DNA from: Ignavibacteria bacterium
GTDB taxonomy: Bacteria > Bacteroidota > Ignavibacteria > Ignavibacteriales > SURF-24
Reading direction: 5' to 3'
NCBI GenBank assembly: GCA_025612375.1
Contig: JAAXKN010000019.1
Location: forward strand, 1-64,000
DNA length: 64,000 bases
A model generated the notes under the pieces. It had not been told where the DNA came from, did no database searches, and saw nothing but the letters and a program-made list of their open reading frames with translations. Positions 37,671-59,863 of this stretch are shown piece by piece. The first letter of the stretch is position 1. Each line of letters begins with the position of its first letter. A program made the position numbers and the translations under genes.

Positions 37671-37697
37671 TGAATAGATATGAAGTGATGAATATAT

Positions 37698-39170: not shown

Positions 39171-39238
39171 TAAAATAAGAGTTAACTTGACGCGTTGACT
39201 GCATATATATAATAGATATAAAATCAGGAAAAATTCAC

Positions 39239-40699
39239 ATGCTATCCAGTTCTTTGATTCGCGTTCTGCTCATAGAAGACGAGGATTTTGACGTCCGCAG
39301 GGTGCAAAATACAGTAAAACCGTTTGAGGAAAAGATCCATATTTCCAAAATTGTCTCAAACGGTAAAGATGCCCTTGAAATACTGCACGACAAAAGGGAA
39401 AAATATCACGTCGTTATTATGGATTTCCAGATAGCTGGCGGACTTATGGGGGAGGCCCTGATACAGAAGATCAAGGAGATTGACTCTTCAATCCAGATCA
39501 TTGTTATCACTAAAATGACAATTAACCTTACCGACTTTAACTTTGCAAATAAACTTCTGAAGGCCGGCGCCTTCTGGTACTGCACCAAATACCCGGGCGA
39601 TATCGAGGAATATATCTACCAGCCTACTGACTTCGTTATCAGCATCTTTAATGCTTTTGAAAAGTGCCTCTTGGAAAGAGAAAGGGATAAATCCAACCTC
39701 AAACTAAAAAGAACCATTGAGGACATACTGGCACAGAAGAAAATTATAGGCGAATCCGTCTTAATGACCCGCCTTAAGGAAGACGTATTAAAATACTCGC
39801 AGAGCAACGTAAACATTCTCATCAAAGGGGCCTCCGGTACTGGAAAGGAGATCATTGCTTTTAACCTGCATTACAACAGCCCCCGCCGTTTTGAGAACTT
39901 TGTGCCCATTAACTGCGGAAGCCTTCCTAATGACCTCATTGAAAGTGAACTTTTTGGCTATGAAAAAGGCGCCTTTACAGGGGCAGATAAGAAAAAACCG
40001 GGACTCTTTGAAATTGCCAATAACGGTACGGTCTTTCTGGATGAAATAACAGAGCTCCCGCTTTCAGCCCAGGTGAAGCTTTTAAGGGTTATACAGGAAG
40101 GAGAGCTTGAAAAACTTGGCAGGACTGAAAAAATTAAGGTCAATGTGAGGATAATTGCCGCCACAAACCGTAATATTGAAGAAGAGGTGAGGGCTAAACG
40201 CTTCAGGGAGGACCTTTACTACAGGCTGAACGTCGTCCCGATCTCTGTGCCCCCTCTCAAGCAGAGGAAAAGCGATATCCACCTTCTTATAGACCATTTT
40301 ATGAATAAAATGAGTATTGATATGGGTAAGGAGAAGCCTCAAATTGACCAGAGCGCCTGGGAAATACTTATTGATTACGACTGGCCGGGAAATATACGTG
40401 AACTCATAAACGTTGTACAAAGATTTTTCTTCAGCGACGAAAAGATGATAACTTACCTCCAGGCAAAGCTTGTAATAGGAAGCTTCGACCTGCATGAGCA
40501 GTCTTCAGGAAGCCTTAATGGTATTGAATTCTTTACTGAAGGTGAGGTTATCCCCTTAAAGCAGATGGAAAAAATGGTGAGGGAGAAATATTTCATATTT
40601 GTCAGGGAAAACTCCTCTTCTGATACAGAAGCGGCAAAAAAGCTGGGGCTGGCTCCCCCGAACTATTACAGGATGGCTAAAGAGCTCGGCCTGAAGTAG
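39239..40699 (+). CDS. Sigma-54-dependent response regulator (NtrC family)
   Basis: The 486-residue regulator has a receiver domain (1-125, phospho-acceptor Asp62 in VVIMDFQ and acidic pair in LLIEDED). It has a sigma-54 AAA+ domain (160-400; Walker A GASGTGKE 197-204, GAFTGA loop 244-249) and a short C-terminal segment with an Fis-like helix-turn-helix (DTEAAKKLGLAPPNYYRMAKELGL). The intact GAFTGA means it can activate sigma-54 RNA polymerase. It is the last gene of the binding-protein/kinase/regulator set and is followed by a hairpin (40727-40754). Its probable targets are the sigma-54-like promoters of GH125, GH2 and the SSS symporter around it. Confidence 0.93.
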   Translation: MLSSSLIRVLLIEDEDFDVRRVQNTVKPFEEKIHISKIVSNGKDALEILHDKREKYHVVIMDFQIAGGLMGEALIQKIKEIDSSIQIIVITKMTINLTDFNFANKLLKAGAFWYCTKYPGDIEEYIYQPTDFVISIFNAFEKCLLERERDKSNLKLKRTIEDILAQKKIIGESVLMTRLKEDVLKYSQSNVNILIKGASGTGKEIIAFNLHYNSPRRFENFVPINCGSLPNDLIESELFGYEKGAFTGADKKKPGLFEIANNGTVFLDEITELPLSAQVKLLRVIQEGELEKLGRTEKIKVNVRIIAATNRNIEEEVRAKRFREDLYYRLNVVPISVPPLKQRKSDIHLLIDHFMNKMSIDMGKEKPQIDQSAWEILIDYDWPGNIRELINVVQRFFFSDEKMITYLQAKLVIGSFDLHEQSSGSLNGIEFFTEGEVIPLKQMEKMVREKYFIFVRENSSSDTEAAKKLGLAPPNYYRMAKELGLK

Positions 40700-40880: not shown

Positions 40881-40932
40881 CAATGACACCCGGGACCTGA
40901 CGGATTTATAAATTTTATCTGGAAAAATGTTA

Positions 40933-43269
40933 ATGAAAAAGATATGGCTGCTTTATTCTGCGGCATGCTTGTTTTTATCCCCTGCACAATTCACACTTGC
41001 ACAGACAGCTACACTTGAAGCTACACTGTCCTTAAAAAAAATAGATGGCATTAGTATCCCGTTTCAGAACGAAATGCCCGTCCCCTCGTTCGAAAAGCAG
41101 GACCGCATGGTAATAAATCTTTCCGGAAACTGGAAAAAACAAAGATTCCAGGCCTCCGACTTCACAACGCTAAGTAAAAGAGATGCATCAGGTTATAATA
41201 ACCTTGTTTCCGAGGCTATGAACCGCTTTAAGGCGGACTTTGACGACAGCGCCTGGCCCGTTAAAAATATCCCGTCTGTTGAAAATACAATGAAACCTTA
41301 CCCTAACGTGCCTGAAAACTACGAGGACGGGGTCTGGTACCGCTATAAGTTTACGGCTGGAGACTCACTGAAAGGAAAGTTTGTAAAACTCATCTTCCAT
41401 GCTGTAAATTATGTGGCCGACGTCTGGCTTAACGGCAGTTACCTGGGTTACCATGAGGGAGGCTATACCCCCTTTGCATTCGATGTTACTTCAAAACTCC
41501 TCATGGGAGGGGAAAATACAATTGCCGTAAGGGTGGATAACCCCGCCTGGGGTACAAGAAACGATATAGTCCCGTTTTATAAAGTCGACTGGTTTAATTA
41601 TACGGGAATTATCGGCGACGTGTACCTGGAAGCCACAAACCCGGTAACCATCATGAGAGGCGACGTGCTCCCGCTGGACGTAAACGGGAACATTCAGGCC
41701 ACAGTTACTCTATTTAATAAAGATACGCTTGATAAAAACATCAGCCTTTCGCTTGACATTTTTAATGCCCAGGTAAATGAAGCAAACGTTGCAAGCGAAA
41801 AGGCAAAAGACCTCGTGGGAGCACTGGTTGAGGCCGCGGGAGCATCCGCTTCCCAAATTCTAATCCCCGGAGATTCGGCAAAGGTCTTCCGTACCACGCT
41901 GAATATTGCGAGCCCAAGGCTCTGGAGCCCGAAAGAGCCGAACCTGTATATACTGAAAGTTACATTAAAGGATAAAGACAAAATAGTTGACGAGTTTTAC
42001 ACACAGTTCGGCATCAGAACCGTTCAGACTGCGGGAAGTAAACTCCTCTTGAACGGCAAAACTGCATTCTTTACCGGCGTTGCCCGCCACGAGGATCACC
42101 CTCAGTACGGCCGGAGCATACCCAAAAACATAATTTATTCCGATATGCTGAAGGTAAAAGGCGTAAATGCAAACATGCTCCGTACGGCACACTACCCCAA
42201 TAACCTTTATACATACCTTATCTCTGACCGCCTTGGTATAAGCATAGTAGAGGAAATCCCGGTATGGTGGTTCGATACCCCTACGGACTGGTATAATCAG
42301 AACAGCTTAAGACATATCCATGAACAGATGTTCAGGGAAATGGTCTTTAAGGACTTTAACCGCCCTTCAATTTTATTCTGGAGCACTTCAAACGAATCCA
42401 AGGACGTCGACGGACGCAAACTCTTTGAACTCAGGATAAAACAGGAAAAAAATAATTTGTACCCCGACGGAAGGCTTATTACACAGTCTGCTGCGGCAGA
42501 CCGCCCGGGCCCCGGGGACCCCTCGCAGGCACCGTGCGACATTGCGGGCTGGACTATGTACTTTGGTATTTTCCACGGGAGCACGTATTACGACGGGACA
42601 CTGAACTTCCTTAATAACGCAAAGATAAGCTTCCCTAATAAACCTATACTGGATACGGAGTTCGGATACTGGTCGGGTGAATCGGGCTACAGCACCAGCA
42701 CGCAGGTGACGGTCTTTAATGAAACTTTCAGGGCATTTAAGGAGCACGCTTCTCTGAAATCTGACGGGACAGTTAACCCTGACGGATCGCTTGCCGGCGT
42801 TACATGGTGGTGCATCTTTGACTGGTATTCCTGCCAGCAGATCTCGAGTAACGGCTTCCAGAGCATGGGGCTTTACTCAATGGACCGCCAGACCGCTAAA
42901 CCGGTCGCAGCTACGCTTAAAAATGCTTATGCTCCTTACTTTAATTTGGGCGGAACTGCAACTGGCGTCGAAAATAGAAATGGGAGCACTGAGGAAGTCC
43001 GGAACTACAGCCTGGAGCAGAACTACCCGAACCCGTTTAATCCTGAAACCGTAATTTCTTTCCATGTGCCCTTTACCTCAAGAGTCCGCCTTAAACTCTT
43101 CGATTCACTGGGACGCGAAATTGCCACACTTTTAGATGAAGAAAAGGCCGGAGGCTCCTATAGCATAAAACTCAGCTCATATGCGCTTGGGCTTTCCAGC
43201 GGCGTTTATTTCTACCGCCTGGATTCTGGCGGCTTTGTTAAAACCTGCAAGATGTTACTCCTTAAATAG
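40933..43269 (+). CDS. GH2 glycosidase with T9SS sorting domain
   Basis: The 778-residue secreted enzyme starts at the second ATG (40933), which has GGAAAA at normal spacing and begins the signal peptide; the ATG at 40927 is an alternative. Residues below count from 40927. It has a GH2 sugar-binding domain (62-240, DVWLNGSYLGYHEGGY), an Ig-like domain (245-365) and a barrel with acid/base Glu490 in WSTSNES and nucleophile Glu578 in ILDTEFG. It ends in a T9SS sorting domain (LEQNYPNPFNPE... to KTCKMLLLK). GH2 covers beta-galactosidase, beta-mannosidase and beta-glucuronidase; I cannot choose. A sigma-54-like promoter and one inverted repeat lie upstream, tying it to the neighbouring sensor system. 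Confidence 0.88.
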   Translation: MKKIWLLYSAACLFLSPAQFTLAQTATLEATLSLKKIDGISIPFQNEMPVPSFEKQDRMVINLSGNWKKQRFQASDFTTLSKRDASGYNNLVSEAMNRFKADFDDSAWPVKNIPSVENTMKPYPNVPENYEDGVWYRYKFTAGDSLKGKFVKLIFHAVNYVADVWLNGSYLGYHEGGYTPFAFDVTSKLLMGGENTIAVRVDNPAWGTRNDIVPFYKVDWFNYTGIIGDVYLEATNPVTIMRGDVLPLDVNGNIQATVTLFNKDTLDKNISLSLDIFNAQVNEANVASEKAKDLVGALVEAAGASASQILIPGDSAKVFRTTLNIASPRLWSPKEPNLYILKVTLKDKDKIVDEFYTQFGIRTVQTAGSKLLLNGKTAFFTGVARHEDHPQYGRSIPKNIIYSDMLKVKGVNANMLRTAHYPNNLYTYLISDRLGISIVEEIPVWWFDTPTDWYNQNSLRHIHEQMFREMVFKDFNRPSILFWSTSNESKDVDGRKLFELRIKQEKNNLYPDGRLITQSAAADRPGPGDPSQAPCDIAGWTMYFGIFHGSTYYDGTLNFLNNAKISFPNKPILDTEFGYWSGESGYSTSTQVTVFNETFRAFKEHASLKSDGTVNPDGSLAGVTWWCIFDWYSCQQISSNGFQSMGLYSMDRQTAKPVAATLKNAYAPYFNLGGTATGVENRNGSTEEVRNYSLEQNYPNPFNPETVISFHVPFTSRVRLKLFDSLGREIATLLDEEKAGGSYSIKLSSYALGLSSGVYFYRLDSGGFVKTCKMLLLK

Positions 43270-43463: not shown

Positions 43464-45110
43464 TTGTGGGATATTGTGTTTAGCAGTTTTACTTTACTTG
43501 ATGGCATAATACTGGTCGCCTACTTAATTGTAGTTTTAAGTTTTGGCTTCTATTACTCGCGCAGGCAGGCGAAAAATCCTTCGGATTATTTCCTCTCTGG
43601 AAGATCTATGGGCTGGATTACAGTAGGTATGTCAATTTTTGCCACAAACATTTCGAGCGAACATTTTATCGGTCTGGCTGGTTCAGGTGCCGCAAGGGGC
43701 CTGGCTGTCGGACAGTTTGAAATAATGGCTATTTTCATCCTTCTTATTCTGGGTTGGTTCATTTCACCGGTCTACATAAAATCGGGTGTAAACACAATGC
43801 CGGAATTCCTGGAGAAGCGTTTTGACAAAAGAAGCCGTAAATTTTTTGCCGCCTTATCTATAATATTATATATATTCACAAAAATATCGGTCACACTTTT
43901 TGCCGGCGGCATCCTGTTCTACAAGATTTTCGGAATTAACATATATGCCTCGGCCATAATAATTGTGCTTATTACGGGTATTTACAGCGTAATCGGCGGC
44001 GCTACGGCTGTAATGAAAAACCACATATTCCAGACCGTTATGCTGATACTGGGCGCCGTAATGCTCACGGTCTTCGGCCTTATGGAAGTCGGCGGTTTTC
44101 ATGGCCTCCAGCAGAAGCTGCCGGGAAACTATTTCAGCCTCTTTAAGCCTATGAGCGACCCGGATTTCCCCTGGACGGGTATTATATTCGGAGCCCCGAT
44201 AGTTGCATTCTGGTATTGGTGTACAGACCAGTACATCGTTCAGCGTGTTCTATCCTCCAAAAGCATCGAAGATGCAAGACGCGGCTCAATCCTGGCTGCA
44301 TGCTTTAAGATTACCCCGATTTTTATTTTAGTTCTGCCCGGACTTATTGCCGTAGCCCTCTTTCCTGAAATTAACGGCGACGACGCCTACCCGACACTCC
44401 TTGCAAGCAATATACTTCCTATGGGAATCAAAGGCTTTGTCCTTGCCGGACTTCTTTCGGCTATAATGTCCTCTCTTGCAAGTGTTTTTAACGTTACGGC
44501 TACCATTTTTACAAACGATTTTTACAGGACCAGGCATCCCGAGGCCTCAGACAGAAAACTCGTCCTTGTAGGGCGCCTCTCTACCATGGTTACAATTGTA
44601 GCTGCAATACTCTGCGTCCCGCTTGTCAGGGTTATTAACTCACAGGTTTACCTCTATCTCCAGAACATACAGTCCCTTGTTGCACCTCCTGTTACGGCTG
44701 TATTCCTGGCAGGCATACTGAGCCGCAAGGTTACTGCAAGAGGAGCACTTTGGACACTCATAATCGGAGAAATGATAGGAATGAGTAAACTCGTGCTCGA
44801 TATGATGATTTCAATGGATATGGTTCATAATACATTCCTTCTTGGCATTGCACAGATAAGCTTCCTGCATTTTACTATCATGCTCTTCATTGTCTGTGTG
44901 TTTGTAATTGTTCTTGTCAGCTATATCCCGGAGGACGCTGAGATGCCGGGAATAAACAAAGTCTCTTACTATTTCTCGGACAGCATTAAGAATGTTAATT
45001 ACGATGGTTCCCAGACTGGCGCTCTTGCAGGCAACAGGATAAACCTGATGTTCTCGCTCGTCATCTTGATTGTCGTTTTCATCTTCAGCTTCTGGGGGAT
45101 TTTCTTTTGA
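43464..45110 (+). CDS. Sodium/solute symporter family (SglT-like sugar symporter)
   Basis: The 548-residue inner-membrane protein of the SSS family has about 14 transmembrane helices (LLDGIILVAYLIVVLSFGFYY first; IINLMFSLVILIVV-type helix last). The family core shows in DYFLSGRSMGWITVGMSIFATNISSEHFIGLAGSG, which bears the sodium-site helix. The long loops and GTAGAAY-like segments fit SglT/vSGLT relatives that carry sugars. Two starts are possible: TTG 43464 or GTG 43476; the promoter position favours the latter. Its two inverted repeats and sigma-54-like promoter link it to the sensor operon. Sugar import is inferred from the setting. Confidence 0.88.
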   Translation: MWDIVFSSFTLLDGIILVAYLIVVLSFGFYYSRRQAKNPSDYFLSGRSMGWITVGMSIFATNISSEHFIGLAGSGAARGLAVGQFEIMAIFILLILGWFISPVYIKSGVNTMPEFLEKRFDKRSRKFFAALSIILYIFTKISVTLFAGGILFYKIFGINIYASAIIIVLITGIYSVIGGATAVMKNHIFQTVMLILGAVMLTVFGLMEVGGFHGLQQKLPGNYFSLFKPMSDPDFPWTGIIFGAPIVAFWYWCTDQYIVQRVLSSKSIEDARRGSILAACFKITPIFILVLPGLIAVALFPEINGDDAYPTLLASNILPMGIKGFVLAGLLSAIMSSLASVFNVTATIFTNDFYRTRHPEASDRKLVLVGRLSTMVTIVAAILCVPLVRVINSQVYLYLQNIQSLVAPPVTAVFLAGILSRKVTARGALWTLIIGEMIGMSKLVLDMMISMDMVHNTFLLGIAQISFLHFTIMLFIVCVFVIVLVSYIPEDAEMPGINKVSYYFSDSIKNVNYDGSQTGALAGNRINLMFSLVILIVVFIFSFWGIFF

Positions 45111-45179: not shown

Positions 45180-47717
45180 ATGAAAAAGCATTTTTTACGT
45201 TTATTTATTCTCTTGTCCCTTGCCTGTCCCTTTACACTAAAGGCGCAGGTATTTGTTATCGATAACTTCGATAACGCCATCAAGGACTCGCTTTATATTA
45301 ACAATATCGAAAGCGGTTCCACGATGACACAGGCGCTTAGTACTACTGACAAACATGGCGGTACAGCGGCACTTGATTTCAAGGCTACTGTTGCCAACCT
45401 TCATACCTGGGGAAGTTATGCCCAGTTGATCCGCGCCAGAAAACCGGGTGCACCGTTCTTTAACTTCCAGGGCAGCGACTCTCTCAGCCTCTGGATCAAG
45501 GTTGTTAAAGCTCCAACTCATCCTGAAAGCGTCGTCTTCAGAATCCACCTGGGCGACAGACAGGACACAACCGGCAACTTGGAAGAATATGTGTATGAAA
45601 ATGCAACAATTTTAGATGCTGCCAGCGGCTGGGTTAACCTGAAAGTGCCACTAAAAGAAATTGACAGTAAGGAAAGAACAGTAGCTCCTGGCGACTCAGG
45701 ATTTGTTATCATTCCATCCAGCTGGAATCCTCCTCCGATTAACGACGGGAAGCTCGATCTTACTCATATATCACAGTACAATATTTCTTTTATTACTTCC
45801 GGCGCAATTGAAGATTCAATTGAAGTATTATATGATGATTTTGAACGCTCGGGCCTCAAACCTATTCCTTTTGTCGCCTTTAACGGCAAGGTTGTCAGCG
45901 GCGATATGACAATGGGTGCCTGGGGTAACAGTACCTCGGCTGTAGTTGACCCCGAGGGCGGCTCAGTGGCAGGAAAGGCTGCCATTAAATGGACACTCGA
46001 TCCTCAGACCTGGGATAATGGCGCTCACGGCTGGTGCGGCATTTATTTCGATTTCTCCGAAAGAAATATGGGCGGAAACTGGAAATATGTCGACACAATG
46101 AAATTAAGAGTAAAAATCCCGGCTGAATATAATGATGACCTGAGAATTCAGTTCGACGACGCAGCTAAGGGCAACATCAAATATGTCTTTAAGAAAGCTG
46201 ATTACAATTGGGATGGCACCTGGAAAACATTGAAAATGCCATTACAGGGCGGAGCTCATGATGGCTCAGCTACAACATTTGATTCTACAAGGGTCAATAA
46301 ATTTGAAATTATTGATGAAACAGGATCTGTAAAACCATGTGTTATTTATGTTGAAGACGTCTGGATGGGCAACCCTTCATTTGACGTAATTGCACCTGAG
46401 GCTCCCAAGGACCTCCAGGCTACAACTTCTACAGATTATACTAATATTATCGGCTGGACAGATGTTCCGGGCGAAGCAAATGAAACATACAATGTTTACT
46501 GCAGCTTAAAACCGATAACAGATGTAACTTCTTACGGCGTTGAACTCGTTAAAGGTAAAATTCCTCACGGAACAGGTACCGTTACTCACCTCCTGCGTAC
46601 CCCGCTCGAAGATGGCAGTGTCAGCTATTATTATGCTGTTACTTGTACAGATGCCAGCGGCAACGTAAGCAAGATTGCTTCAACTGCAAGTGCAACTTCA
46701 AACAGTGCAAAAGGCGTTCCGACTATCGCTCTTGGAACCCCGGTCGACTTTAAGGCTGATGGTAAGATTACTGAGTTCACTAATCTCTTTACTACTCTCG
46801 GCTATAAGCCGATCAGCATAAAGAAAACTGAAGGTACCGGCTTTGTTCCTGCTAACCAGAAATGGGATAGCGATGCCGATATTTCTGCCAAGGTTTATAT
46901 GGCAATGGACGACAATAACCTCTACATAGCTTTTGACGTTACTGACGACTATGTCGATGGCATGACAGCTGCTGATACTTATAAGAGAGATTGCCCGGAT
47001 CTTTTTATCGGTCTTTATGACTTCCGCGGTGCTGCTCATACGGCATTCGGCAGAGGCGTTACACCTGACTACCAGATCAGATTTAACCAGACCAAGATCA
47101 GATTCGATAATCCAACCTTAGACAGCCTTTACGCTCCAGGTGAAAATTACTACTGGGCAGAAAAAACAGCAGGCGGCGGCTATATAGTTGAAGCTAAGAT
47201 TCCTTTTACTGAAATACAGACAAGACGCCATACAGTTTCGGGCGCAGATTCATTGTTCAAGCCGGTCGAAGGCATGAAAATTCCAATCGACTTCGCTTTG
47301 AATGATGCAGACGCTACAGGCGAAAGAGAAGGTATCCTTACCTATTCTCCAAACAACGAAGACAAATCATACCAGGATGTTACAAGATGGATTTATACCT
47401 GGGTTGGCAAGAAATCAGTTGTCGGCGTTGAAAATGAAAAGAATACAACCGTTAAATCTTATTCATTATCACAGAACTATCCTAATCCGTTCAACCCGTC
47501 AACTACTATCAGGTATTCAATTCCTCAGGCAGGAAGGGTTACTCTGAAAGTATTTAACGTCCTCGGTAAGGAAATCTCAACTCTGGTTAACGAAGAAAAG
47601 AACCAGGGCAGCTATGAAGTTAAATTCGACGCTTCACAGCTCGCCAGCGGTATCTACTTCTACCAGATCGAAAGCGGCTCGTTCAGACAGGTTAATAAAA
47701 TGTTACTGCTTAAGTAA
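45180..47717 (+). CDS. T9SS-secreted carbohydrate-binding protein (CBM9/DOMON-like)
   Basis: The 845-residue protein has a signal peptide (LFILLSLACPFTLKAQ), two galactose-binding-like beta-sandwich domains (about 20-225 and 230-400), an FN3 domain (410-510, PKDLQATTS...ASGNVSKIAST), a CBM9/DOMON-type domain (about 515-755, VYMAMDDNNLYIAFDVTDDY) and a T9SS sorting domain (LSQNYPNPFNPST... to RQVNKMLLLK). No catalytic domain is recognisable, so it should capture polysaccharide at the cell surface, a functional counterpart of SusE/F-type proteins. A strong terminator follows (47741-47773). The ribosome binding site GGAGAGG supports ATG 45180. Confidence 0.85.
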   Translation: MKKHFLRLFILLSLACPFTLKAQVFVIDNFDNAIKDSLYINNIESGSTMTQALSTTDKHGGTAALDFKATVANLHTWGSYAQLIRARKPGAPFFNFQGSDSLSLWIKVVKAPTHPESVVFRIHLGDRQDTTGNLEEYVYENATILDAASGWVNLKVPLKEIDSKERTVAPGDSGFVIIPSSWNPPPINDGKLDLTHISQYNISFITSGAIEDSIEVLYDDFERSGLKPIPFVAFNGKVVSGDMTMGAWGNSTSAVVDPEGGSVAGKAAIKWTLDPQTWDNGAHGWCGIYFDFSERNMGGNWKYVDTMKLRVKIPAEYNDDLRIQFDDAAKGNIKYVFKKADYNWDGTWKTLKMPLQGGAHDGSATTFDSTRVNKFEIIDETGSVKPCVIYVEDVWMGNPSFDVIAPEAPKDLQATTSTDYTNIIGWTDVPGEANETYNVYCSLKPITDVTSYGVELVKGKIPHGTGTVTHLLRTPLEDGSVSYYYAVTCTDASGNVSKIASTASATSNSAKGVPTIALGTPVDFKADGKITEFTNLFTTLGYKPISIKKTEGTGFVPANQKWDSDADISAKVYMAMDDNNLYIAFDVTDDYVDGMTAADTYKRDCPDLFIGLYDFRGAAHTAFGRGVTPDYQIRFNQTKIRFDNPTLDSLYAPGENYYWAEKTAGGGYIVEAKIPFTEIQTRRHTVSGADSLFKPVEGMKIPIDFALNDADATGEREGILTYSPNNEDKSYQDVTRWIYTWVGKKSVVGVENEKNTTVKSYSLSQNYPNPFNPSTTIRYSIPQAGRVTLKVFNVLGKEISTLVNEEKNQGSYEVKFDASQLASGIYFYQIESGSFRQVNKMLLLK

Positions 47718-47773: not shown

Positions 47774-47853
47774 CAATCACAGCAGAAATACAAATGAATT
47801 TTAGAGTAAACCACAATTATGATTGTGCAAAAATGCTTGGGGAGGTTAAGAAT

Positions 47854-50586
47854 TTGAAAACTCCTAGAAATACTTATGCTTTTGTTTTAAGTATGTTGCT
47901 GTTCATGTTTTTTATGAGTGCGGCTTCCTTTGCCGGAACCACGGGGAAAATCTCAGGAAAAGTGGTGGATTCCGAAACTGGGGAACCTATCGTAGGCGCC
48001 AATATTGTCCTGGAAGGCACTTACCTCGGTGCCGCAGCTGATATGAACGGCTATTATTATATAAATAATATCCCTCCGGGAAAATATACTATTGTAGCAA
48101 GCAGTATAGGCTATCAGAAAACAATTGTCCAGGATGTAATAGTTAAGATAGATCTTACTACCAAAATTGACATTAAGCTTTCCTCTACTTCAATAAATAT
48201 TGGCCGCGAAGTTGTCGTAAGGGCTGAACGCCCGCTGGTTCAGAAAGACCTTACATCCAATACGGCTACGGTTTCTTCCGAAGATATTAAAATGATGCCT
48301 GTTGAAAGTATTGGACAGGTTGTTAATTTGCAGGCCGGCGTCGTCGGCGGACACTTTAGAGGCGGCCGCTCTAACGAAGTTGCTTACCTCGTCGACGGTG
48401 TCTCCGTTACTGATGCTTTCAATAACTCAATGGGCGTTGAAATTGAAAATACTTCCGTAAGACAGATGGAGGTTATTTCCGGTACGTTCAACGCTGAATA
48501 CGGACAGGCTATGTCGGGCGTCGTTAACATTGTTACTCAGGACGGCTCCCAGAACTACGAGGGATCTGCCTCGGCTTACGTTGGAAATTACGTTACTTCA
48601 CATAAAGATTTGTTCCATAACCTCGATAAAATGGACAGAGTGGCCTCCCAGAACCTCCAGTTCAGCTTCTCGGGACCTGTTCCCTACCTCAAAGGACTGA
48701 CGTTCTTTACTACGGGCCGCTATTTTAACGACGAAGGTTATCTCTACGGACAGAGGGTCTATAATGTAACTGACGATGCTCCCCTTCCGGTACAGGTATT
48801 CGACGGCACTAAGACCACTACGGAATATGTAATGAGGAACACCGGCGACGGCAGCTACGTCCCGATGAACCCCAACAAAAAATATTCTTTTAACGGCAAG
48901 CTGACCTATACTCTTCCCGGCTTTAAGTTCAGCTACAGCTTGTTCTGGGATGATAACTATAACAAATACTACAATCATTCATTTTTCCAGACTCCTGACG
49001 GTATTAAAAAACACTACCGCAATAATACCATTAATACCTTTCAGGCTACACACGTAATTTCTCAGAGCACTTTCCAGACCCTGCAGCTCTCGACAAATTA
49101 CCATAACTATTACGGATACCTTTATGCCGATCCCTTTGATTCAAGATATGTAAACCCAACACAGGGCCTGCCTATCACGAATTATACTTTCCGCTCAGGC
49201 GGCAATGAAGGCGACCGCTATGAAAGATATACACGCACCAATATCCTTAAGTGGACACTTGCAAGCCAGGTATCCAAAGAACATAAGATCGGTGCAGGTA
49301 TTGAAGCCAGAATGCATAAGATGTTTAACCATAGCATGTCTATAATCAATTTAACTGAGGATGTTCCCGATACAGCTTCTCATATTGACGGCAAGACAAT
49401 CTTTACACTCGGCTACATGAACTACGGCACTTCTTCAGACAGGGGCTATAATACCGGATACACCAAGAAACCTTTTGAAGTTTCTGCCTACATACAGGAT
49501 AAGATGGAATACGATATCATGATCATCAATGCGGGCGTAAGATTTGAATACTTCGATGCCAATGCAAGCATGCCGGCTGACTGGAAAAATCCGAGAAATA
49601 ACCCTCTCTATCCGGGAGCCGGACTTATGACAAAGTCAAAACCAAAGTTCCAGATTAGCCCGCGCCTGGGAGCCTCTTTCCCAATCAGCGACAAGGGTGC
49701 AATCCACTTCTCGTACGGTCACTTTTTCCAGATGCCGAACTTTGAAAACCTGTATTATAACTCTGACTATATCGTCAGCCCGACTACGGGCCTGAGCTCA
49801 ATTACAGGTAACCCTGATCTTAAGGGACAGAAAACTGTAATGTATGAAATCGGACTTCAGCAGGTGCTCTTCCCGAACGTTGCATTCGACCTGACAGTTT
49901 ACTACAGGGATATAAGAGACTTGCTCGGTATGGAAATTATTAAAACTTACGAAGGCTTCCGCTATGCAAAATACATCAATCAGGACTACGGCAACGTACG
50001 CGGATTTATTGTAACTCTTGAGAAGATGTTCAGCGACTATTTCGGAGCCAAGATAGACTATACCTACCAGATCGCTGAGGGTAACTCTTCTGACCCGACA
50101 TCTGTATTTAACAACAACCAGACAGATCCTCCTATTGCAACTCCCAAGAGGGTTGTGCCTCTGGACTGGGATCAGAGATCAACTCTTAACCTCACTCTGA
50201 ACGTTGGCAATATGGGCGACTGGTCTGTCGGTCTTATCTGCAGCTACGGTACAGGTATGCCTTATACAGAAGATCCTTTATACGTCAACGGCCTCATATT
50301 CAACAATATGGGTATAAAGCCTTCAACATATAATGTGGACTTAAGAGCTGAGAAAAACTTCAACGTGGCCGGATTAAACATCAATACATTCCTCCTGGTT
50401 TATAACCTTCTCGACATAAAGAATCAGTATGGTGTTTACGGCTCTACTGGAACAGCCACTTCGGACTTAAATACAAAAAGAGCAGTACCGATTGTCGGTT
50501 TGAATACTATTGAAGACATGATTAATAATCCTACAATGTATTCGACTCCAAGACAGATACGTCTTGGCCTGTCGGTGGGATTTTAG
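47854..50586 (+). CDS. TonB-dependent outer-membrane receptor with carboxypeptidase-like domain
   Basis: The start is TTG 47854, chosen because GGAGG lies eight bases upstream and a signal peptide begins there (NTYAFVLSMLLFMFF); an in-frame ATG at 47794 has no such site. The 910-residue product has an N-terminal carboxypeptidase-regulatory-like domain (about 30-115, ISGKVVDSETGEPIVGANIV), a plug (about 125-240, SNTATVSSEDIKMMPV, ending VVNIVTQDGS) and a 22-strand barrel ending in Phe. It imports oligosaccharides across the outer membrane using TonB. No SusD gene is adjacent; instead a large secreted protein and PorV follow. Confidence 0.92.
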   Translation: MKTPRNTYAFVLSMLLFMFFMSAASFAGTTGKISGKVVDSETGEPIVGANIVLEGTYLGAAADMNGYYYINNIPPGKYTIVASSIGYQKTIVQDVIVKIDLTTKIDIKLSSTSINIGREVVVRAERPLVQKDLTSNTATVSSEDIKMMPVESIGQVVNLQAGVVGGHFRGGRSNEVAYLVDGVSVTDAFNNSMGVEIENTSVRQMEVISGTFNAEYGQAMSGVVNIVTQDGSQNYEGSASAYVGNYVTSHKDLFHNLDKMDRVASQNLQFSFSGPVPYLKGLTFFTTGRYFNDEGYLYGQRVYNVTDDAPLPVQVFDGTKTTTEYVMRNTGDGSYVPMNPNKKYSFNGKLTYTLPGFKFSYSLFWDDNYNKYYNHSFFQTPDGIKKHYRNNTINTFQATHVISQSTFQTLQLSTNYHNYYGYLYADPFDSRYVNPTQGLPITNYTFRSGGNEGDRYERYTRTNILKWTLASQVSKEHKIGAGIEARMHKMFNHSMSIINLTEDVPDTASHIDGKTIFTLGYMNYGTSSDRGYNTGYTKKPFEVSAYIQDKMEYDIMIINAGVRFEYFDANASMPADWKNPRNNPLYPGAGLMTKSKPKFQISPRLGASFPISDKGAIHFSYGHFFQMPNFENLYYNSDYIVSPTTGLSSITGNPDLKGQKTVMYEIGLQQVLFPNVAFDLTVYYRDIRDLLGMEIIKTYEGFRYAKYINQDYGNVRGFIVTLEKMFSDYFGAKIDYTYQIAEGNSSDPTSVFNNNQTDPPIATPKRVVPLDWDQRSTLNLTLNVGNMGDWSVGLICSYGTGMPYTEDPLYVNGLIFNNMGIKPSTYNVDLRAEKNFNVAGLNINTFLLVYNLLDIKNQYGVYGSTGTATSDLNTKRAVPIVGLNTIEDMINNPTMYSTPRQIRLGLSVGF

Positions 50587-50599
50587 GAGAATACCGGAG

Positions 50600-53500
50600 A
50601 TGAAAATGACAAAAAAACTACTATACACTTTGGCATTGCTGCTCGTTTCACAGGTGGCTTTTGCACAAAACGGCATCGATCAGATGATGAAATACCGCAG
50701 CGAACCCAAAGGCAACATTCAGTACCGCAAAGAAGGGGTCCTGCAGGGAAATCTGGTCAGAACTTTGTTCCAGAACCAGGGTGAGGTAGGCCACTGGCCG
50801 AATTCACCTTCAGGCGAATGGCCCAAAGGAAGCGGTATCGATAACCTCGACGGCGTTAGCGTTCTGGTGGCAACCGAAATAAGTACACCGGATGCCCCGA
50901 ATAAGCTCAGCCATCCCCTGCAGACCGCTTACAGGGAGTGGATGGACAGTGACCCTGTAACAGGTGACCTTTGGGGATTTGAACCTGTACCGGGATATTT
51001 CTATGAGTCCCCTACGGGAAACACAGATTCAACTTCAAAGTCTCCTGCCATCAGCTCCAACCAGGCTACCTGGCCCCTCAAATGGCCAAGAGCCCTGCCG
51101 GTTGAAAATCCTGAAGAATGGGATGGATACTGGTATGGATACTTCGGCCGCGGCGTTAAAAATGCCGACGAGGAGACTTTCTTTGTAATGGACGATTCTA
51201 AAGACGGCGAATGGAAAAGACCCCCTTATAACTTCTACCCTATTGCCTCCGACCACGACCGTGGCGGCATTGGCCTCAGAGTTGAAGTTCGCGGCTTCCA
51301 GTGGTCGCACGTTCTGGCCGAAGATATTATCTTCTGGCATTATGATATAGTTAATATTTCTGACAATAATTACGAAAAGACTTACTTCGGATTTTATACC
51401 GATATTGGCTCGGGCGGTCAGAACAGTTCCGATGATAACGCATATTACGATAAAAAGCTGGATATCGCTTACGGTTGGGATGCACTCGGACAGCTCACCA
51501 ACGGTAAGAAGATAGGCTACTACGGTTACGCTTACCTTGAAAGCCCGGGCAACTCTTTTGACGGAACCGACAACGATGAGGACGGCCTTATTGATGAAAG
51601 ACGCGACAACGGCCCGGGAGAACTTGTAAACGGACCGATCGGTATCTTTGGCGCTCCTAAGCTCCACTGGTCAGGCGACGAAAACGGCGACTGGCTCGGC
51701 TATGTTGACGCAAACGGCAACGGCAAGTGGGATAAAGATGAGCCCCTTAATGATGACGTGGGTAAAGACGGACTCGGCCCATTTGACGTGGACTATAAGG
51801 GTCCCGACGAAGGCGAAGGCGACGGAATGCCTACAGACGGTGAACCTCATTTCGGCAAGACAGATAAGAATGAATCAGACCAGATCGGTCTTACTGCTCT
51901 TTCAATCTATGTGCTTGGCGACGGCGGCGTAGGCGGCGGCTGGCCTAAAGACGACGAGCAGATGTGGAAGAAAATGAGCTCCGGTACATTCGATACCGAA
52001 ATCCAGAAAAAGAATATCAGTATGGTCTTTGCTTCAGGTCCCTTCCCTCTTAAACAGGCACTGAGAGAAAGATTCTCTATGGCTCTTGTTTTCGGCAGCG
52101 ACTTAGAAGACCTGATCTTCAACAAGGAAACGGTTCAGCAGATCTATAACGCTAACTATAACTTCTCTAAGCCTCCTTTGAAGCCGCACGTAACTGCAGT
52201 TGCCGGCGACGGAAAAGTGTTCCTCTTCTGGGACAGCAAGGCTGAGGAATCACGCGACCCGTTCCTGGGATATGAAAAGGGTAAACCGGAATTAGGCTAT
52301 AAGAAAGACTTCGAAGGTTACATGATCTATAGAAGTACTGAACCTGAATTCCAGGATATCAAGACTATAACTGACTCAAAAGGCGCTCCTAAATACTGGA
52401 AGCCGATTGCTCAGTTCGACCTTATTGACAGCGTTAAAGGTCCCGACCCTGTTGGAATTAACGGCGCTTCTTTCTGGAGAGGCGACAATAACGGCCTCCA
52501 GCACTCATTCGTGGATACAGACGTTAAAAACGGCATAAAATACTATTACGCCGTGGTTTCATACGATATGGGTGACCCGAAATTCGGCACCAAGGGCCTG
52601 CAGCCTACTGAGTGTACAAAGATCATTGCTCAGGACTTTGCCGGAAACGTTAACTTCGTGGACGTTAACTGCGCTGTTTTAACTCCAAATGCTCCGGTGG
52701 CCGGATATACACCTCCGCAGATAGTCGGCAACCTTAAGAAAGTTTCCGAGGGCGTCGGTACCGGTAGAATGTCTGTGGACGTCCTTAGCCCTAACAGCAT
52801 TAAGGACAACGTCAGCTATAAGGTTAGGTTTAATTCAACAGGCTTAATGCCGAAATACACTACAAGCTCATTTGATATCATTAGAACAGAAGGCAGCCAG
52901 ACAGATACAATAGTTGTCGGACAGGATACTTCACACATCGGTCAGGGAAAATCAAGCCTTCCTTTTGACGGCATGACCGTGAGTGTCGAAAACGACAGCA
53001 TCTCTATCGTAGATTCACTTACTAACTGGCTTGTTGGTAAAAGTAATCTCCTTAGAGCTTACGCAGACAGGAATCTGCAGTATGGCGTTAAATGGCCTAA
53101 TGATTACCAGCTTGAGTTCCTTCCCGGCAAAACCGTGCCGTCATTAAGCGCAACTTACCCCAACAATCAGGGGATGAACGTGAACTTTATAGCTACAAAT
53201 ATCGCAACAGGTGATACCGTTCCTGTTATCGTATTTGACCTGGACGACAACGGTGAATTCAATGTGGGTGATGAATTCGCCATAGTTGAATTTGCCGATA
53301 AGAACAAAAACGGCAAGAAAGAATTCAGCGAGCGTAACTTCGCATGGCACTTTACTTACAGGCCGCTTTTCGGCGACCCTGTTGAGCCTCAGGCAGGAGA
53401 TAAATTCATCCTTTCTACCAGCAAGCCCTTTAAACAGGGAGACGCCTTTACATTTACAACAAAGGCTTCTACTGTCGACAATGCGCTGGCCCAGAATCAG

Positions 53501-53815
53501 CTTGATAGAATTTCCGTTGTGCCTAACCCTTATATAAGTGCAGCTGAATGGGAGCCTAAAACACTCAACCAGTTCGGCCGCGGCGACAGAAGAATTGAAT
53601 TCATTCACCTGCCGGCTAAGTGCACCATCAGGATTTATACTATCGCTGGTGCCCTGGTTAAAACACTGCAGAAGGATTCTGCCCCAAGCGACGGCTCCGT
53701 TTTCTGGAACCTGGTTTCTGAGGACGGTATGGATATAGCCTATGGCCTTTATATCTATCACGTCGATGCACCCGGAATCGGTGAGCATATCGGTAAATTC
53801 GCGGTAATTAAATAG
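50600..53815 (+). CDS. Large secreted surface protein with Asp-rich Ca-binding segments
   Basis: The 1071-residue product has a signal peptide (LLYTLALLLVSQVAFAQ). The start is ATG 50600 or 50606, fourteen to twenty bases after the TonB receptor stop, with a GGAG just upstream. The middle has aspartate/glycine-rich EF-hand or thrombospondin-3-like stretches (DNDEDGLIDERRDNG, VDANGNGKWDKDEP, DLDDNGEFNVGDEF, DKNKNGKKEFSE), which suggest calcium binding. The C-terminus is FlgD-Ig-like (VPNPYISAAEWEPKT... to HIGKFAVIK) rather than the usual NYPNPFNP form. It probably assembles with the receptor, but no enzymatic motif is visible. Confidence 0.8.
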   Translation: MKMTKKLLYTLALLLVSQVAFAQNGIDQMMKYRSEPKGNIQYRKEGVLQGNLVRTLFQNQGEVGHWPNSPSGEWPKGSGIDNLDGVSVLVATEISTPDAPNKLSHPLQTAYREWMDSDPVTGDLWGFEPVPGYFYESPTGNTDSTSKSPAISSNQATWPLKWPRALPVENPEEWDGYWYGYFGRGVKNADEETFFVMDDSKDGEWKRPPYNFYPIASDHDRGGIGLRVEVRGFQWSHVLAEDIIFWHYDIVNISDNNYEKTYFGFYTDIGSGGQNSSDDNAYYDKKLDIAYGWDALGQLTNGKKIGYYGYAYLESPGNSFDGTDNDEDGLIDERRDNGPGELVNGPIGIFGAPKLHWSGDENGDWLGYVDANGNGKWDKDEPLNDDVGKDGLGPFDVDYKGPDEGEGDGMPTDGEPHFGKTDKNESDQIGLTALSIYVLGDGGVGGGWPKDDEQMWKKMSSGTFDTEIQKKNISMVFASGPFPLKQALRERFSMALVFGSDLEDLIFNKETVQQIYNANYNFSKPPLKPHVTAVAGDGKVFLFWDSKAEESRDPFLGYEKGKPELGYKKDFEGYMIYRSTEPEFQDIKTITDSKGAPKYWKPIAQFDLIDSVKGPDPVGINGASFWRGDNNGLQHSFVDTDVKNGIKYYYAVVSYDMGDPKFGTKGLQPTECTKIIAQDFAGNVNFVDVNCAVLTPNAPVAGYTPPQIVGNLKKVSEGVGTGRMSVDVLSPNSIKDNVSYKVRFNSTGLMPKYTTSSFDIIRTEGSQTDTIVVGQDTSHIGQGKSSLPFDGMTVSVENDSISIVDSLTNWLVGKSNLLRAYADRNLQYGVKWPNDYQLEFLPGKTVPSLSATYPNNQGMNVNFIATNIATGDTVPVIVFDLDDNGEFNVGDEFAIVEFADKNKNGKKEFSERNFAWHFTYRPLFGDPVEPQAGDKFILSTSKPFKQGDAFTFTTKASTVDNALAQNQLDRISVVPNPYISAAEWEPKTLNQFGRGDRRIEFIHLPAKCTIRIYTIAGALVKTLQKDSAPSDGSVFWNLVSEDGMDIAYGLYIYHVDAPGIGEHIGKFAVIK

Positions 53816-53828
53816 AGGTCGAAATAAA

Positions 53829-54842
53829 ATGAAAAAAATATATATATTTATCGTACTTGTGCTTTTTGCAACGCTCGAAATATCTGCGCAGACCTATGTG
53901 GCCGACGTTTCGAAAAAAGGTACCACTGCGGCTCCCTTCCTTTCTATAGGACAGGGAGCAAAGGCGGCTTCAATGGGCAGCGCATTTGTTGCAGTTGCAG
54001 ACGATCCGAGTGCAATGTACTGGAATCCTTCAGGCCTTGCAAACCTCAGCGGCGTAAACGTACTGTTTGACCATACTGAATGGTTTGCGGGTATCAGATT
54101 CAACTATGTCGGTATTACTTACAGCCTGGGCGACTTTGGAAACATCGGCGCCAGCTTTACCGCTTCCGACATAGGCGAAATGAATGTAACAACAATCAAC
54201 GAGCCGGAAGGTACCGGCGAAGTCTTTAAGGTTAATGACGTTGCCTTCAGTGTTGCATACGCCCTTAAGCTTACGGATAATTTTTCAATAGGCATTAACC
54301 CCAAATTCATCAGCCAGTCGATCTGGAGAATGAACGCTACGGGTATCGCTCTCGATATGGGCGTCCAGTACGTGACACCTTTTGACGGCGCCGTTCTTGC
54401 TATGTCTATTGCAAATTTCGGTTCCAGAATGCAGCTGACCGGTAACTCGGCTCTCAAGGTTATACAAATGGGTACTAACGACAAGGTGCCTGCATACCTT
54501 CAGACTGAAGAATGGGCCCTGCCGCTGAACTTCAGGGTCGGTATCGCTTATCAGCCCCTGAAAACCCAGATGCATAAGCTGACTCTGGCTGTCGATGCAA
54601 TGCATCCTAACGACAACTACGAAAGCGTTAACGCTGGCGCTGAATATCTCTTCAACGACTTCGTGGCTTTCCGCGGCGGCTATAATTCCCTCTTCCTGAA
54701 AGATTCCGAACAGTCCTTTACTTTGGGCTTCGGCCTTAAACAGCAGATACTGGGCAACATAGCTGTAAAACTGGACTATGCTTTCGAGAAGTTCGGACGC
54801 CTGAATAATATTCAGAAATTTACTCTGGGTATTAATTTCTAA
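53829..54842 (+). CDS. PorV/PorQ-family outer-membrane protein
   Basis: The 337-residue beta-barrel protein has a signal peptide (IYIFIVLVLFATLEISAQ) and the family hallmark near residues 36-72: FLSIGQGAKAASMGSAFVAVADDPSAMYWNPSGLA. PorV acts as the shuttle that carries T9SS cargo to the attachment complex; this family also includes FadL-like small-molecule channels. Its position as the last gene after the receptor and the large surface protein suggests a dedicated outer-membrane partner of that protein, an inference from gene order. AGAGG at 53813 supports the start, and a terminator follows (54918-54942). Confidence 0.85.
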   Translation: MKKIYIFIVLVLFATLEISAQTYVADVSKKGTTAAPFLSIGQGAKAASMGSAFVAVADDPSAMYWNPSGLANLSGVNVLFDHTEWFAGIRFNYVGITYSLGDFGNIGASFTASDIGEMNVTTINEPEGTGEVFKVNDVAFSVAYALKLTDNFSIGINPKFISQSIWRMNATGIALDMGVQYVTPFDGAVLAMSIANFGSRMQLTGNSALKVIQMGTNDKVPAYLQTEEWALPLNFRVGIAYQPLKTQMHKLTLAVDAMHPNDNYESVNAGAEYLFNDFVAFRGGYNSLFLKDSEQSFTLGFGLKQQILGNIAVKLDYAFEKFGRLNNIQKFTLGINF

Positions 54843-55049: not shown

Positions 55050-56876
55050 ATGAATATAAGAAAACCATTTACTTCAATATTTAACTTTATTATTGCATCT
55101 ATTATGCTTACGTCACTTCCTGCCTCGGCTAAAACTTACAAGGGGGCTGAGTACAGGACCAAGGAGGCATATACATACGGAAGATTTGAGGTCCGTATGA
55201 AGTCATTTGAGAAGGACGGCCTTCTGGCTTCTTTCTTTACGTACCACGAAATCCAGACTACTGCCGACTGGAATGAAATAGACCTCGAAATCATGGGGCG
55301 CTTCAGCAATAACGTCCAGTTTAATGCAATAACTTCAGGACAGACCAACCACGTGCGCTCAAATTATGTGGAATTCAACCCCTCGCTCGACTTCCATACA
55401 TACGCTTTCGAATGGACGCCGCAGTACGTAAGCTGGTTCGTTGACGGAACTGAGGTTTACAGGCAGACAGGCTCGCACGTCCAGACCATGAATAAAGCAC
55501 AAAAGATTATGATGAACGTCTGGAACCCTGCATACCCAAACTGGGCGGGCGTGCTTAATCCGGCGGCGCTTCCGGCATTTGCATACTACGACTGGGTAAG
55601 CTACTATGCCTATACACCGGGCTCGGGCAGCTACGGAACAGGCAACAACTTCTCGCTTAAATGGAAGGACGACTTTAACTCATGGGACCAGTCGCGCTGG
55701 GAGAAGGCAACTCACACGTGGGATGGAAATAACTGCGACTTTATAACTGACAACGCCGTAATTAAAGACGGCATGCTTATTCTCTGCATTACAGACAGCT
55801 ACCATACGGGCTATACCGATAAGAATACACCCCAGCCCCTCTGGGCCAGACTTGAAGGAAACAAAATTATAGTAAAGTTTTCTGAGGAGGTCGAAAAGAC
55901 CAGCGCTGAATCAGCTTCCAACTATACTTCTGCGGGGCTTACTGTAAGCAGTGCACAACTACTCGAAGACCGCAAAACTGTTGAACTTTCTTTGGGTAGT
56001 TCCGACGCTTCAGTCCAGTCAATAACAGTTGCTAACGTTAAGGACAGGTCCACTGATGCCAACACACTTTTACCCAGAACAATCTCACTCATAAAACAGA
56101 CGCCATTAAGCTTCCCTATAAAAATCAACACTGGCGGAGGAGCTGTTAGCGGATTCCTTGCAGACCAGGAATGGAAGGAAACCTCTGAATACGGATATCA
56201 GGACGGAAGCGTGGATCCTGCTTATCCGCCAACTGGAACTTCAGAGGTCTATAAAAATGCATTGAAAGGGATGGTTTCCTACAAGGTCCGCGTGCCCGAA
56301 GGAAAGTATAACGTAAAACTGATGCTGATGGAGAATTACTTTACTCAGGCGAGCAAAAGAGTTTTTGATGTTTATGTTGAGAATGAAGGACAAGCCTTAA
56401 ACCTGGACTTATATTCTTTAGCCGGAATTAACAGGACTTATGAAAAGGTTTTCAATAGCATCAGTGTCACCGACGGGGTGCTGGACATTTATTTTGCCGC
56501 CAAAACGGATATGGCACAGCTGTACGGACTTGTAGTTGAAAAGGCCTCAACAGATGTCGGGGGAAACAATTTAGAGGAAAGTAACGCAGGGAAACCTGAA
56601 AGCTTTAGTCTTCAGCAGAATTATCCTAATCCCTTTAACGGAATGACAAAAATCAGATTTTCACTTCCCGCCAAAGACAACGTGACTTTTGACGTCTACG
56701 ACCTCCTGGGAAACCTGGTCTATAGAGAGGATCTTGGCCTCAGGGCAAATGGCAGTAATGAGTATCTGTGGAAGGCAGTCCACATGAACGGTAAACCCCT
56801 TTCTTCCGGGGTTTACCTTTATTCAGTTAAGGGAACCGGATACGCTCTTTATAAGAAAATGATACTTCTAAATTAA
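55050..56876 (+). CDS. Circularly permuted GH16 beta-glucanase with malectin-like and T9SS domains
   Basis: The 608-residue secreted enzyme has a signal peptide (about 1-27). A GH16 catalytic jelly-roll follows with the retaining motif NEIDLE: nucleophile Glu76, Asp78, acid/base Glu80. The order is unusual: the mature protein begins with the segment TYKGAEYRTKEAYTYGRFEV that lies in the middle of a Bacillus lichenase. The lichenase N-terminal strands (FNSWDQSRWEKATHTW, DGMLILCIT) come at 209-247. This is the order of the Fibrobacter 1,3-1,4-beta-glucanase, a known natural permutant. An Ig-like domain (265-350), a malectin-like domain (365-505) and a T9SS sorting domain follow. Mixed-linkage or laminarin-type glucan is likely. 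Confidence 0.9.
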   Translation: MNIRKPFTSIFNFIIASIMLTSLPASAKTYKGAEYRTKEAYTYGRFEVRMKSFEKDGLLASFFTYHEIQTTADWNEIDLEIMGRFSNNVQFNAITSGQTNHVRSNYVEFNPSLDFHTYAFEWTPQYVSWFVDGTEVYRQTGSHVQTMNKAQKIMMNVWNPAYPNWAGVLNPAALPAFAYYDWVSYYAYTPGSGSYGTGNNFSLKWKDDFNSWDQSRWEKATHTWDGNNCDFITDNAVIKDGMLILCITDSYHTGYTDKNTPQPLWARLEGNKIIVKFSEEVEKTSAESASNYTSAGLTVSSAQLLEDRKTVELSLGSSDASVQSITVANVKDRSTDANTLLPRTISLIKQTPLSFPIKINTGGGAVSGFLADQEWKETSEYGYQDGSVDPAYPPTGTSEVYKNALKGMVSYKVRVPEGKYNVKLMLMENYFTQASKRVFDVYVENEGQALNLDLYSLAGINRTYEKVFNSISVTDGVLDIYFAAKTDMAQLYGLVVEKASTDVGGNNLEESNAGKPESFSLQQNYPNPFNGMTKIRFSLPAKDNVTFDVYDLLGNLVYREDLGLRANGSNEYLWKAVHMNGKPLSSGVYLYSVKGTGYALYKKMILLN

Positions 56877-56892: not shown

Positions 56893-57999
56893 CTAAAACT
56901 CCCCCCACACTATCACCGCCTTTATCTCATCAGGGGAATGTTTTTTCATCACGTTCTCAAAGTTTTCATATTTCACCTTGTGGGTTATTAACTGGCTTAG
57001 TTCCCCGGGCCACCTGGTGTTGGCACTGACTAAATCGTCTATTGCCATTTGGTAGTGATGTATGCTTGCATTCACGCTTCCTAAGATGACATGATTCATC
57101 AGCACCATCTGCCGCATAATCCTGCTTCCAAGAACTGAAACCGGGCGGTCCCCGCCCGGAATTCCTGTAAGCACATAAACGCCGTTAATACCCAGAACGT
57201 CCATTAGCTCAAACTCCAGCTTTGCAATTCCCGTTGCCTCTGCAATGATATCCATCGGACGGTAAGTCTCGTCAATTTTTGTGGTCTCAACTTTACGGCC
57301 GTCTATATACTTTCCGCCAATTGCCTTTAGAAGAGCGGGCCTGTGAGTGTTTTCATCAACAATGTCAAGCCCGTAGACATTTGCGCCCCTGAGTGTGAGT
57401 ATAAAAGAGGCCAGGAGCCCTATAGGGCCCAGTCCTGCTACAAGCGCATTCTTCCCCTTGATCCAGTCTGTAACGTCCTTCTCCGGAAGCCTGGAGGCCT
57501 GAATAAGAAGCAGTTCATCGATTGCCTTTTCAACTACAGACATAGGCTCGGTAAGAACTCCGATATGCCTGATCTCACCGGGCACCTTAACAATAAATTC
57601 CTCATCGTCAACAACAAATTCTGCCTGGTATCCGTCGAGCTCTTTAATTCCCCTTTCTTTATACTTTCCCGTGTAGCACATGTCGCTTCTTCCATGCAGG
57701 CAGGGATAACACTCCCGGCACGGCCGGCGCACCATAAAAAGGGCGTAGTCGCCTTGCCTGACGGAACTGACCGAGCTCCCGCATTCAACTACACGCCCAA
57801 GCATCTCATGGCCTATTATAAGCCTGCTCTGACCTTCCGGGGCGTCCGCCCTCCCGCCCGAGACTTCTTCACGGTCCGTGCCGCAGATGCCGACGTTTAG
57901 GACCTGAAGCCTGACCTCGTGGGGATTTGTGATTTTAGGCTCCGGGACGTCAATTAGTTCCGGATCCCCTTTGCCTGGTGTTATTGCTATTGCTTTCAT
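56893..57999 (-). CDS. Zinc-dependent glucose dehydrogenase (MDR family)
   Basis: The 368-residue medium-chain dehydrogenase is of the archaeal/GDH type, oxidising aldoses to lactones with NAD(P)+ in the cytoplasm. Catalytic-zinc ligands: Cys39 (in GICGTD) and His64-Glu65 (IIGHEM). A structural zinc site has Cys94, Cys97, Cys100 and Cys108. The nucleotide-binding fold begins at LVAGLGPIGLLASF, followed by the dinucleotide-binding strand VYGLDI. It converges with the GH16 gene (16 bases between stops) and follows the GH15 gene by nine bases on the same strand, so glucose released by GH15 may be oxidised by it. Confidence 0.88.
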   Translation of the reverse strand: MKAIAITPGKGDPELIDVPEPKITNPHEVRLQVLNVGICGTDREEVSGGRADAPEGQSRLIIGHEMLGRVVECGSSVSSVRQGDYALFMVRRPCRECYPCLHGRSDMCYTGKYKERGIKELDGYQAEFVVDDEEFIVKVPGEIRHIGVLTEPMSVVEKAIDELLLIQASRLPEKDVTDWIKGKNALVAGLGPIGLLASFILTLRGANVYGLDIVDENTHRPALLKAIGGKYIDGRKVETTKIDETYRPMDIIAEATGIAKLEFELMDVLGINGVYVLTGIPGGDRPVSVLGSRIMRQMVLMNHVILGSVNASIHHYQMAIDDLVSANTRWPGELSQLITHKVKYENFENVMKKHSPDEIKAVIVWGEF

Positions 58000-58008
58000 A
58001 GGTAATGC

Positions 58009-59835: not shown

Positions 59836-59863
59836 AATCACATTATCCTTTAACACCTGTTAC

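Follow-up and report, generated by a model that had tools for sequence, protein, structure and literature searches.

In the 64,000-nucleotide stretch of Ignavibacteria DNA analysed here (the window), one gene encodes a GH16 domain that the sequence comparison and the predicted model confirm as a natural circular permutant of the Fibrobacter type. As the best overall explanation, the gene product is very probably a secreted cell-surface endo-β-glucanase of the licheninase type (GH16_21-like), built on a naturally permuted jelly roll. The Fibrobacter glucanase is the textbook natural circular permutation and is usually viewed as a single case. Our results suggest that the permuted kind is far more widespread, and they place the window enzyme in a separate clade, with its own fixed domain and operon setting.

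The protein consists of a signal peptide, the permuted GH16 domain, an Ig-like (Big_5-like) domain, a malectin (CBM57-like) domain and a T9SS sorting tail (Table 1). When the ORF was compared with Pfam, a single GH16 stretch was observed, residues 26–161 matching profile positions 25–160 of 175, and PF00722 scored 105.1 bits (cut-off 22). The malectin domain was also clear as a sequence match (PF11721, 60.7 bits, cut-off 23), its binding being predicted. Big_5 (PF13205) stayed below the Pfam cut-off in the ORF (13.4 vs 23.6 bits, E 0.13), and the corresponding region folds as an all-beta domain in the predicted model. The tail matched TIGR04183 with 33.5 bits (cut-off 23), and the same genome carries SprA (2360 aa; SprA_N 178.9 bits); a sorting domain over its cut-off together with a T9SS gene marks the protein as a predicted T9SS substrate. 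The NCBIfam BglS model gave E 7e-47 across its second half, below its cut-off. A match of this kind, under the cut-off and limited to the second half, is expected of a permuted chain.

Table 1. Features of the permuted GH16 gene and of its operon (positions in the window)
Feature	Position	Strand	Remarks
Permuted GH16 ORF	55050..56876	+	608 aa, ATG start, uninterrupted
Predicted Sec signal peptide	55050..55127	+	residues 1–26 (MNIRK...LPASA), from sequence reading
Circularly permuted GH16 domain	55128..55805	+	residues 27–252; catalytic E76, D78, E80 (EXDXE)
Junction	55599..55664	+	residues 184–205; linker YYAYTPGSGSYGTGNNFSLKW (YTPGSGS...), from ancestral C-terminal strand to ancestral N-terminal strands
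Ig-like domain	55857..56054	+	residues 270–335; Big_5 below cut-off, all-beta in model
Malectin domain	56124..56507	+	residues 359–486; PF11721 and match to human malectin 9ikp
T9SS type A C-terminal sorting domain	56622..56864	+	residues 525–605; TIGR04183
PorV/PorQ-family outer-membrane protein	53829..54842	+	conserved immediate upstream neighbour of permuted GH16
1069-aa protein	50606..53815	+	signal peptide, conserved ~100-aa C-terminal tail, without Pfam family; middle gene of TonB receptor/PorV module
TonB-dependent receptor	47794..50586	+	CarboxypepD_reg and plug
CBM9-like protein with T9SS tail	45180..47717	+	
Sodium:solute (sugar) symporter	43464..45110	+	
GH2 glycosidase with T9SS tail	40927..43269	+	orthologues adjoin permuted GH16 at five other loci (L018, L024, L109, L110, L120)
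Likely sensor/regulator set	36324..40699	+	solute-binding protein, histidine kinase, sigma-54 response regulator

When the protein was searched against the PDB with phmmer, the top match was the Fibrobacter succinogenes glucanase, which aligned with residues 26–252 in a single collinear stretch (E 3.8e-51); the permutant entries, including 1MVE and 3AXD, gave E values of about 1e-50. In contrast, the normal-order Bacillus lichenases aligned only with residues ~24–186. The domain profile was also cut into two halves, and the order of the halves was read for every GH16 in all fetched loci. Among the 201 GH16 stretches, which include some loci fetched twice, 177 were permuted, 13 were normal and 11 had no detectable N-half; intermediates with N-terminal strands at both ends were absent. 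In the window ORF, the only N-terminal half that the test detected lies behind the C-terminal half, and there was no second GH16 domain or half-domain. The ancestral N-terminal strands thus follow the ancestral C-terminus, and their original place holds no copy.

The AlphaFold model of the window protein (pLDDT 96.4, pTM 0.92) superposed on the Fibrobacter permutant (1ZM1/1MVE) with Z of 33.5–34.4 over 226–229 residues (rmsd 1.4–1.7), and on the engineered permutants 1CPN/1CPM with Z of 31 over the full length. For the normal-order Bacillus lichenases, Z was 19 over only ~160 residues. As sequence and predicted model together show, the chain begins with the strand KGAEYRT, passes the catalytic strand with EXDXE and reaches the ancestral C-terminus, from where the YTPG-type linker leads to the ancestral N-terminal strands. 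An earlier note, made by a model from the letters, had proposed this order and a Fibrobacter-type permutant outside Fibrobacter. Both were borne out by the collinear alignment, by the position of the N-half and by the structural match. The superposition on 1MVE that it had called for did not reveal the usual strand order, and a second complete GH16 domain, named there as a refutation, was looked for in the ORF and not found. Its malectin and sorting domains held as well; its Ig-like domain stood as a beta domain of the model, under the Pfam cut-off.

Like the F. succinogenes 1,3-1,4-β-D-glucanase (1MVE, 1ZM1, 3AXD), the window enzyme shows the permuted order, the same cut point, the jelly roll and E-x-D-x-E. 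The two differ in that identity is ~39%, M154 and H222 stand in the window for R137 and W203, the E85 position is absent, and the Ig-like, malectin and T9SS domains are missing from the solved (truncated) Fibrobacter enzyme. The Bacillus lichenases (GH16_21; 1GBG, 1MAC, 3O5S) share the fold and the active-site motif, and probably the chemistry, but they have the normal strand order, and their alignment with the window domain covers only its first 160 residues. In the engineered permutants, derived from a Bacillus hybrid glucanase, the cut lies at the corresponding position (residue 59); unlike the window protein, they are laboratory-made and have no accessory domains.

When residues were compared across the permuted members, E76, D78 and E80 were invariant, and F63, W74, W158, W165 and W217 were retained in all or nearly all of them. 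GH16_21 is distinguished by EXDXE without the β-bulge, Phe at −1 and Trp at +1 (PMC6827312); the window sequence has E76-I-D78-L-E80, F63 and the conserved W158/W165. β-1,3-1,4-glucan, probably from plants, is the likely substrate. The enzyme would cut its β-1,4 bonds by retaining catalysis, with E76 as the proposed nucleophile and E80 as the proposed acid/base. In favour of this, Melioribacter roseus, a cultured member of Ignavibacteriales, hydrolyses lichenan (PMC3534657). The two substitutions M154 and H222 lie near the substrate and were counted against this explanation. The other glycosidase of the operon belongs to GH2, a family not typical of β-glucosidases, and the polymer met in nature may therefore carry decorations or be another one.

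It is unlikely that the enzyme is a permuted GH16 whose main activity is another one (laminarinase, xyloglucanase or fungal-wall glucanase), since over the whole domain its similarity is to strict licheninases, its EXDXE, F63 and W158/W165 are as in GH16_21 (PMC6827312), and it matches BglS as described above. Such an activity would fit the GH2 of the operon and the GH125 α-mannosidase gene at 34554–36002 (− strand), which may bear on the natural substrate; GH125 relatives also adjoin permuted GH16 at three other loci (L038, L039, L040) and would suit a mannan-rich substrate.

The domain was present at E < 1e-90 in 42 of 294 sampled genomes of the window's class, with a clear gap between these matches and ordinary GH16 (E > 1e-22). 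Because the same domain occurs end to end in ~40 genomes of the same class at that level, a chance match is excluded. In the phylum-wide sample, tens of genomes matched over the full domain, mostly in proteins of ~610 aa with the same architecture. A scan of named genomes gave 515 relatives, a count in which strand order plays no part. The best 80 of these include isolates of Cellvibrio, Sorangium cellulosum, Algibacter, Tamlana and Portibacter, and also Fibrobacter, Chitinispirillaceae, Caldithrix, Neomarinimicrobiota and Spirochaetes MAGs. A match occurred in 116/167 Fibrobacterota genomes and in 32/100 genomes of the Cellvibrio family. The permuted GH16 itself was found in Bacteroidota, Cellvibrio, Sorangium, Calditrichota, Fidelibacterota, Spirochaetota and Fibrobacterota, i.e., in at least seven phyla, and is no Fibrobacter speciality. 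In the open-access literature, we found no description of a permuted GH16 outside Fibrobacter, which is weak evidence of absence; the GH16 subfamily paper does not mention the permutation (PMC6827312).

Carriage by mobile elements was also considered. Relatives of the gene were found neither in viral contigs nor in phage records, and viral or phage carriage was rejected on that ground. No plasmid match covered more than 38% of the query, and several lay only on the malectin/tail part; among the plasmid matches listed, those to GH16 stop near residue 185–207, and in five fetched plasmid loci an N-half after the C-half was undetected. Plasmid carriage was rejected on the partial coverage and the undetected permuted order.

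Several genomes carry more than one GH16. In many Fibrobacterota genomes, a further permuted GH16 is present as a paralogue of greater divergence (profile E about 1e-54; loci L162 and L163 and second-copy matches), and adjacent permuted pairs, i.e., tandem paralogues, occur in Cellvibrio relatives and Polyangiaceae-like genomes (11 loci). The Sorangium cellulosum So ce26 isolate has a permuted and a normal-order lichenase-type GH16 in one genome. On a contig from the window's phylum (L038; G280:C420:4500-16000), a permuted and a normal-order GH16 lie ~8 kb apart with a GH125 homologue near; the permuted one has a ~300-aa N-terminal extension in place of the Ig-like and malectin domains.

A full-domain tree was built from 68 permuted and 15 normal rows, with the normal-order domains rotated into register. 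All permuted rows formed one group (99/99, 100% of bootstraps). Since rotation could bias this tree, it was repeated with the half that both orders leave uninterrupted, so that no signal could stem from rotation, and the permuted domains still formed one group (79/83, 77% of bootstraps). A single old permutation event is hence favoured by the sequences, though not proven, and so is common descent with the Fibrobacter permutant through one permuted family. The full-domain result, together with the YTPG-type linker and cut point common to both clades described below, makes it improbable that the window clade and the Fibrobacter/Cellvibrio clade each acquired the permutation independently, by convergence at the same loop, even though that site, which is residue 59 in the Bacillus hybrid, tolerates cutting in 1CPM/1CPN (PMC2395249) and the C-half tree unites the permuted domains in only 77% of bootstraps.

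The permuted group, for which we favour a single origin, consists of two clades. The window clade comprises Ignavibacteria-like genomes, Caldithrix and Neomarinimicrobiota (support 84/86), and the other comprises Fibrobacter, Cellvibrio, Sorangium and Flavobacteria (98/85). The permuted enzymes of Cellvibrio, Sorangium, Algibacter and Portibacter are natural permutants of the same family as the window's, but they belong to the other clade, have Fibrobacter-like residues, are shorter (about 260–540 aa) and stand outside the 600-aa architecture. In the Fibrobacter-containing clade, R137 (F. succinogenes numbering) was present in 108/113 members and W203 in 105/113; at these positions, the window clade has M (45/45) and H (42/45), and it lacks the three features R137, W203 and the E85 position that are common in the other clade. 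Because M and H are common in normal-order relatives, and given the tree, the enzyme of the window seems to lie nearer the ancestral state and is no Fibrobacter import.

A direct and fairly recent transfer from (or to) Fibrobacterota is very improbable and was rejected by the tree and the AU tests. When the window clade and Fibrobacterota were forced into an exclusive group, the tree was 54 log units worse (AU p=0.01), and a narrower Fibrobacterota set gave p=0.003. The low identity, the clade-specific M154 and H222, the absent E85 position and the frequency of the gene in the window's own class also speak against it; the top PDB match is the Fibrobacter enzyme, yet this is the sole natural permutant among the solved structures listed. 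Errors of assembly or gene calling can be dismissed, and so can an internal duplication mimicking permutation, as tens of independent genomes share the order and length, the ORF has no second half-domain, and in none of the 201 GH16 stretches is the C-terminal half flanked by N-terminal halves on either side. The earlier note had suggested shared ancestry or transfer with Fibrobacterota and had implied that the permutant is rare outside Fibrobacter. The tree it had asked for gave a single permuted group with the window and Fibrobacter in different clades: homology through one permuted family was upheld, a special link or recent exchange was not supported, and the rarity is not real, the family spanning seven named phyla. 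As a separate observation, the permuted GH16 of a Bacteroidales MAG from horse faeces (L121) falls within Fibrobacter, which probably reflects a recent transfer (or mis-binning).

Normal order is general across GH16, and the direction is therefore taken as normal to permuted. The permuted gene would have arisen when, once in an ancestor, a lichenase gene of normal order was duplicated and truncated; it would then have spread by descent and transfer through several phyla in two main clades. The window copy would come from the clade typical of its own class, fixed as permuted GH16, Ig-like domain, malectin domain and T9SS tail.

The permuted GH16 is the last gene of a SusD-less PUL-like operon. 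Of the 51 locus rows that show the 600-aa architecture, 40 have a PorV-family homologue upstream of the permuted GH16; with duplicate fetches removed by hand, the count is about 32 of 43 distinct loci of the window clade (clade I), some of the remaining loci ending at contig ends or having short flanks. At other permuted loci, the count was 0/126. The GH16-linked PorV proteins are 38–65% identical to the window's, as compared with 24–44% for paralogues within its own genome. GH2, symporter or response-regulator homologues recur at other permuted GH16 loci. The SusD profiles PF07980 and PF14322 were unmatched in the locus and in the whole genome, while control profiles did match; the SusD beside SusC of a canonical SusCD PUL is thus missing. 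Like a canonical SusC/SusD locus, the window has clustered surface glycosidases, a TonB receptor, an inner-membrane sugar transporter and a regulator, but the 1069-aa protein and the PorV-family protein are found in SusD's place. No tRNA or Rfam RNA was found in the 64-kb window, and counts of promoter-like and terminator-like signals near the gene were about those of shuffled sequence and were not used. Convergent with the operon, at 56893–60892 (− strand), are a glucose dehydrogenase, a GH15/trehalase-like gene and a 342-aa ORF without a Pfam match.

The domain order, predicted fold, catalytic residues, sorting tail and gene order point to a likely T9SS-anchored mixed-linkage β-glucanase feeding a TonB receptor. 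The enzyme would leave the cell by Sec and then T9SS and be anchored at the surface, where the malectin domain would bind glucan. The oligosaccharides released would be imported by the TonB receptor module next to the gene and by the sodium symporter.

The genome itself holds about eleven more copies of the three-gene module, in which a TonB receptor, a 700–1200-aa secreted protein and a PorV-family protein follow in this order; the secreted protein bears a conserved C-terminal tail, and several copies adjoin carbohydrate enzymes (GH94, GH88, GH99, GH106, GHL10 and a putative glucoamylase). In a paddy-soil study, susCD genes were scarce in Ignavibacteriales CAZyme clusters (PMC10576277), and one SusCDE operon has been reported for Melioribacter roseus (PMC3534657). 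The module may be a local substitute for SusCD, which we regard as a lead and not a result. We give roughly even chances to the larger reading that a single ancient lichenase permutation founded a large family that now spans at least seven phyla and falls into two clades, told apart by their active-site signatures, and that one of these clades is, in the window's class, the fixed partner of a SusD-less uptake module that has about a dozen copies in the window's own genome and replaces SusC/SusD.

A broad family of apparently single origin, with coexisting normal-order relatives, makes the evolution of natural permutants testable with real outgroups, and the genomes that hold both orders (So ce26 and the L038 contig) are good starting points for the origin of permutants by duplication and truncation. 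The family also offers a broad choice of permuted lichenases to those who work on the enzymes. For Ignavibacteria-like bacteria, the SusD-less module is a candidate answer to the question of how glycans are taken up.
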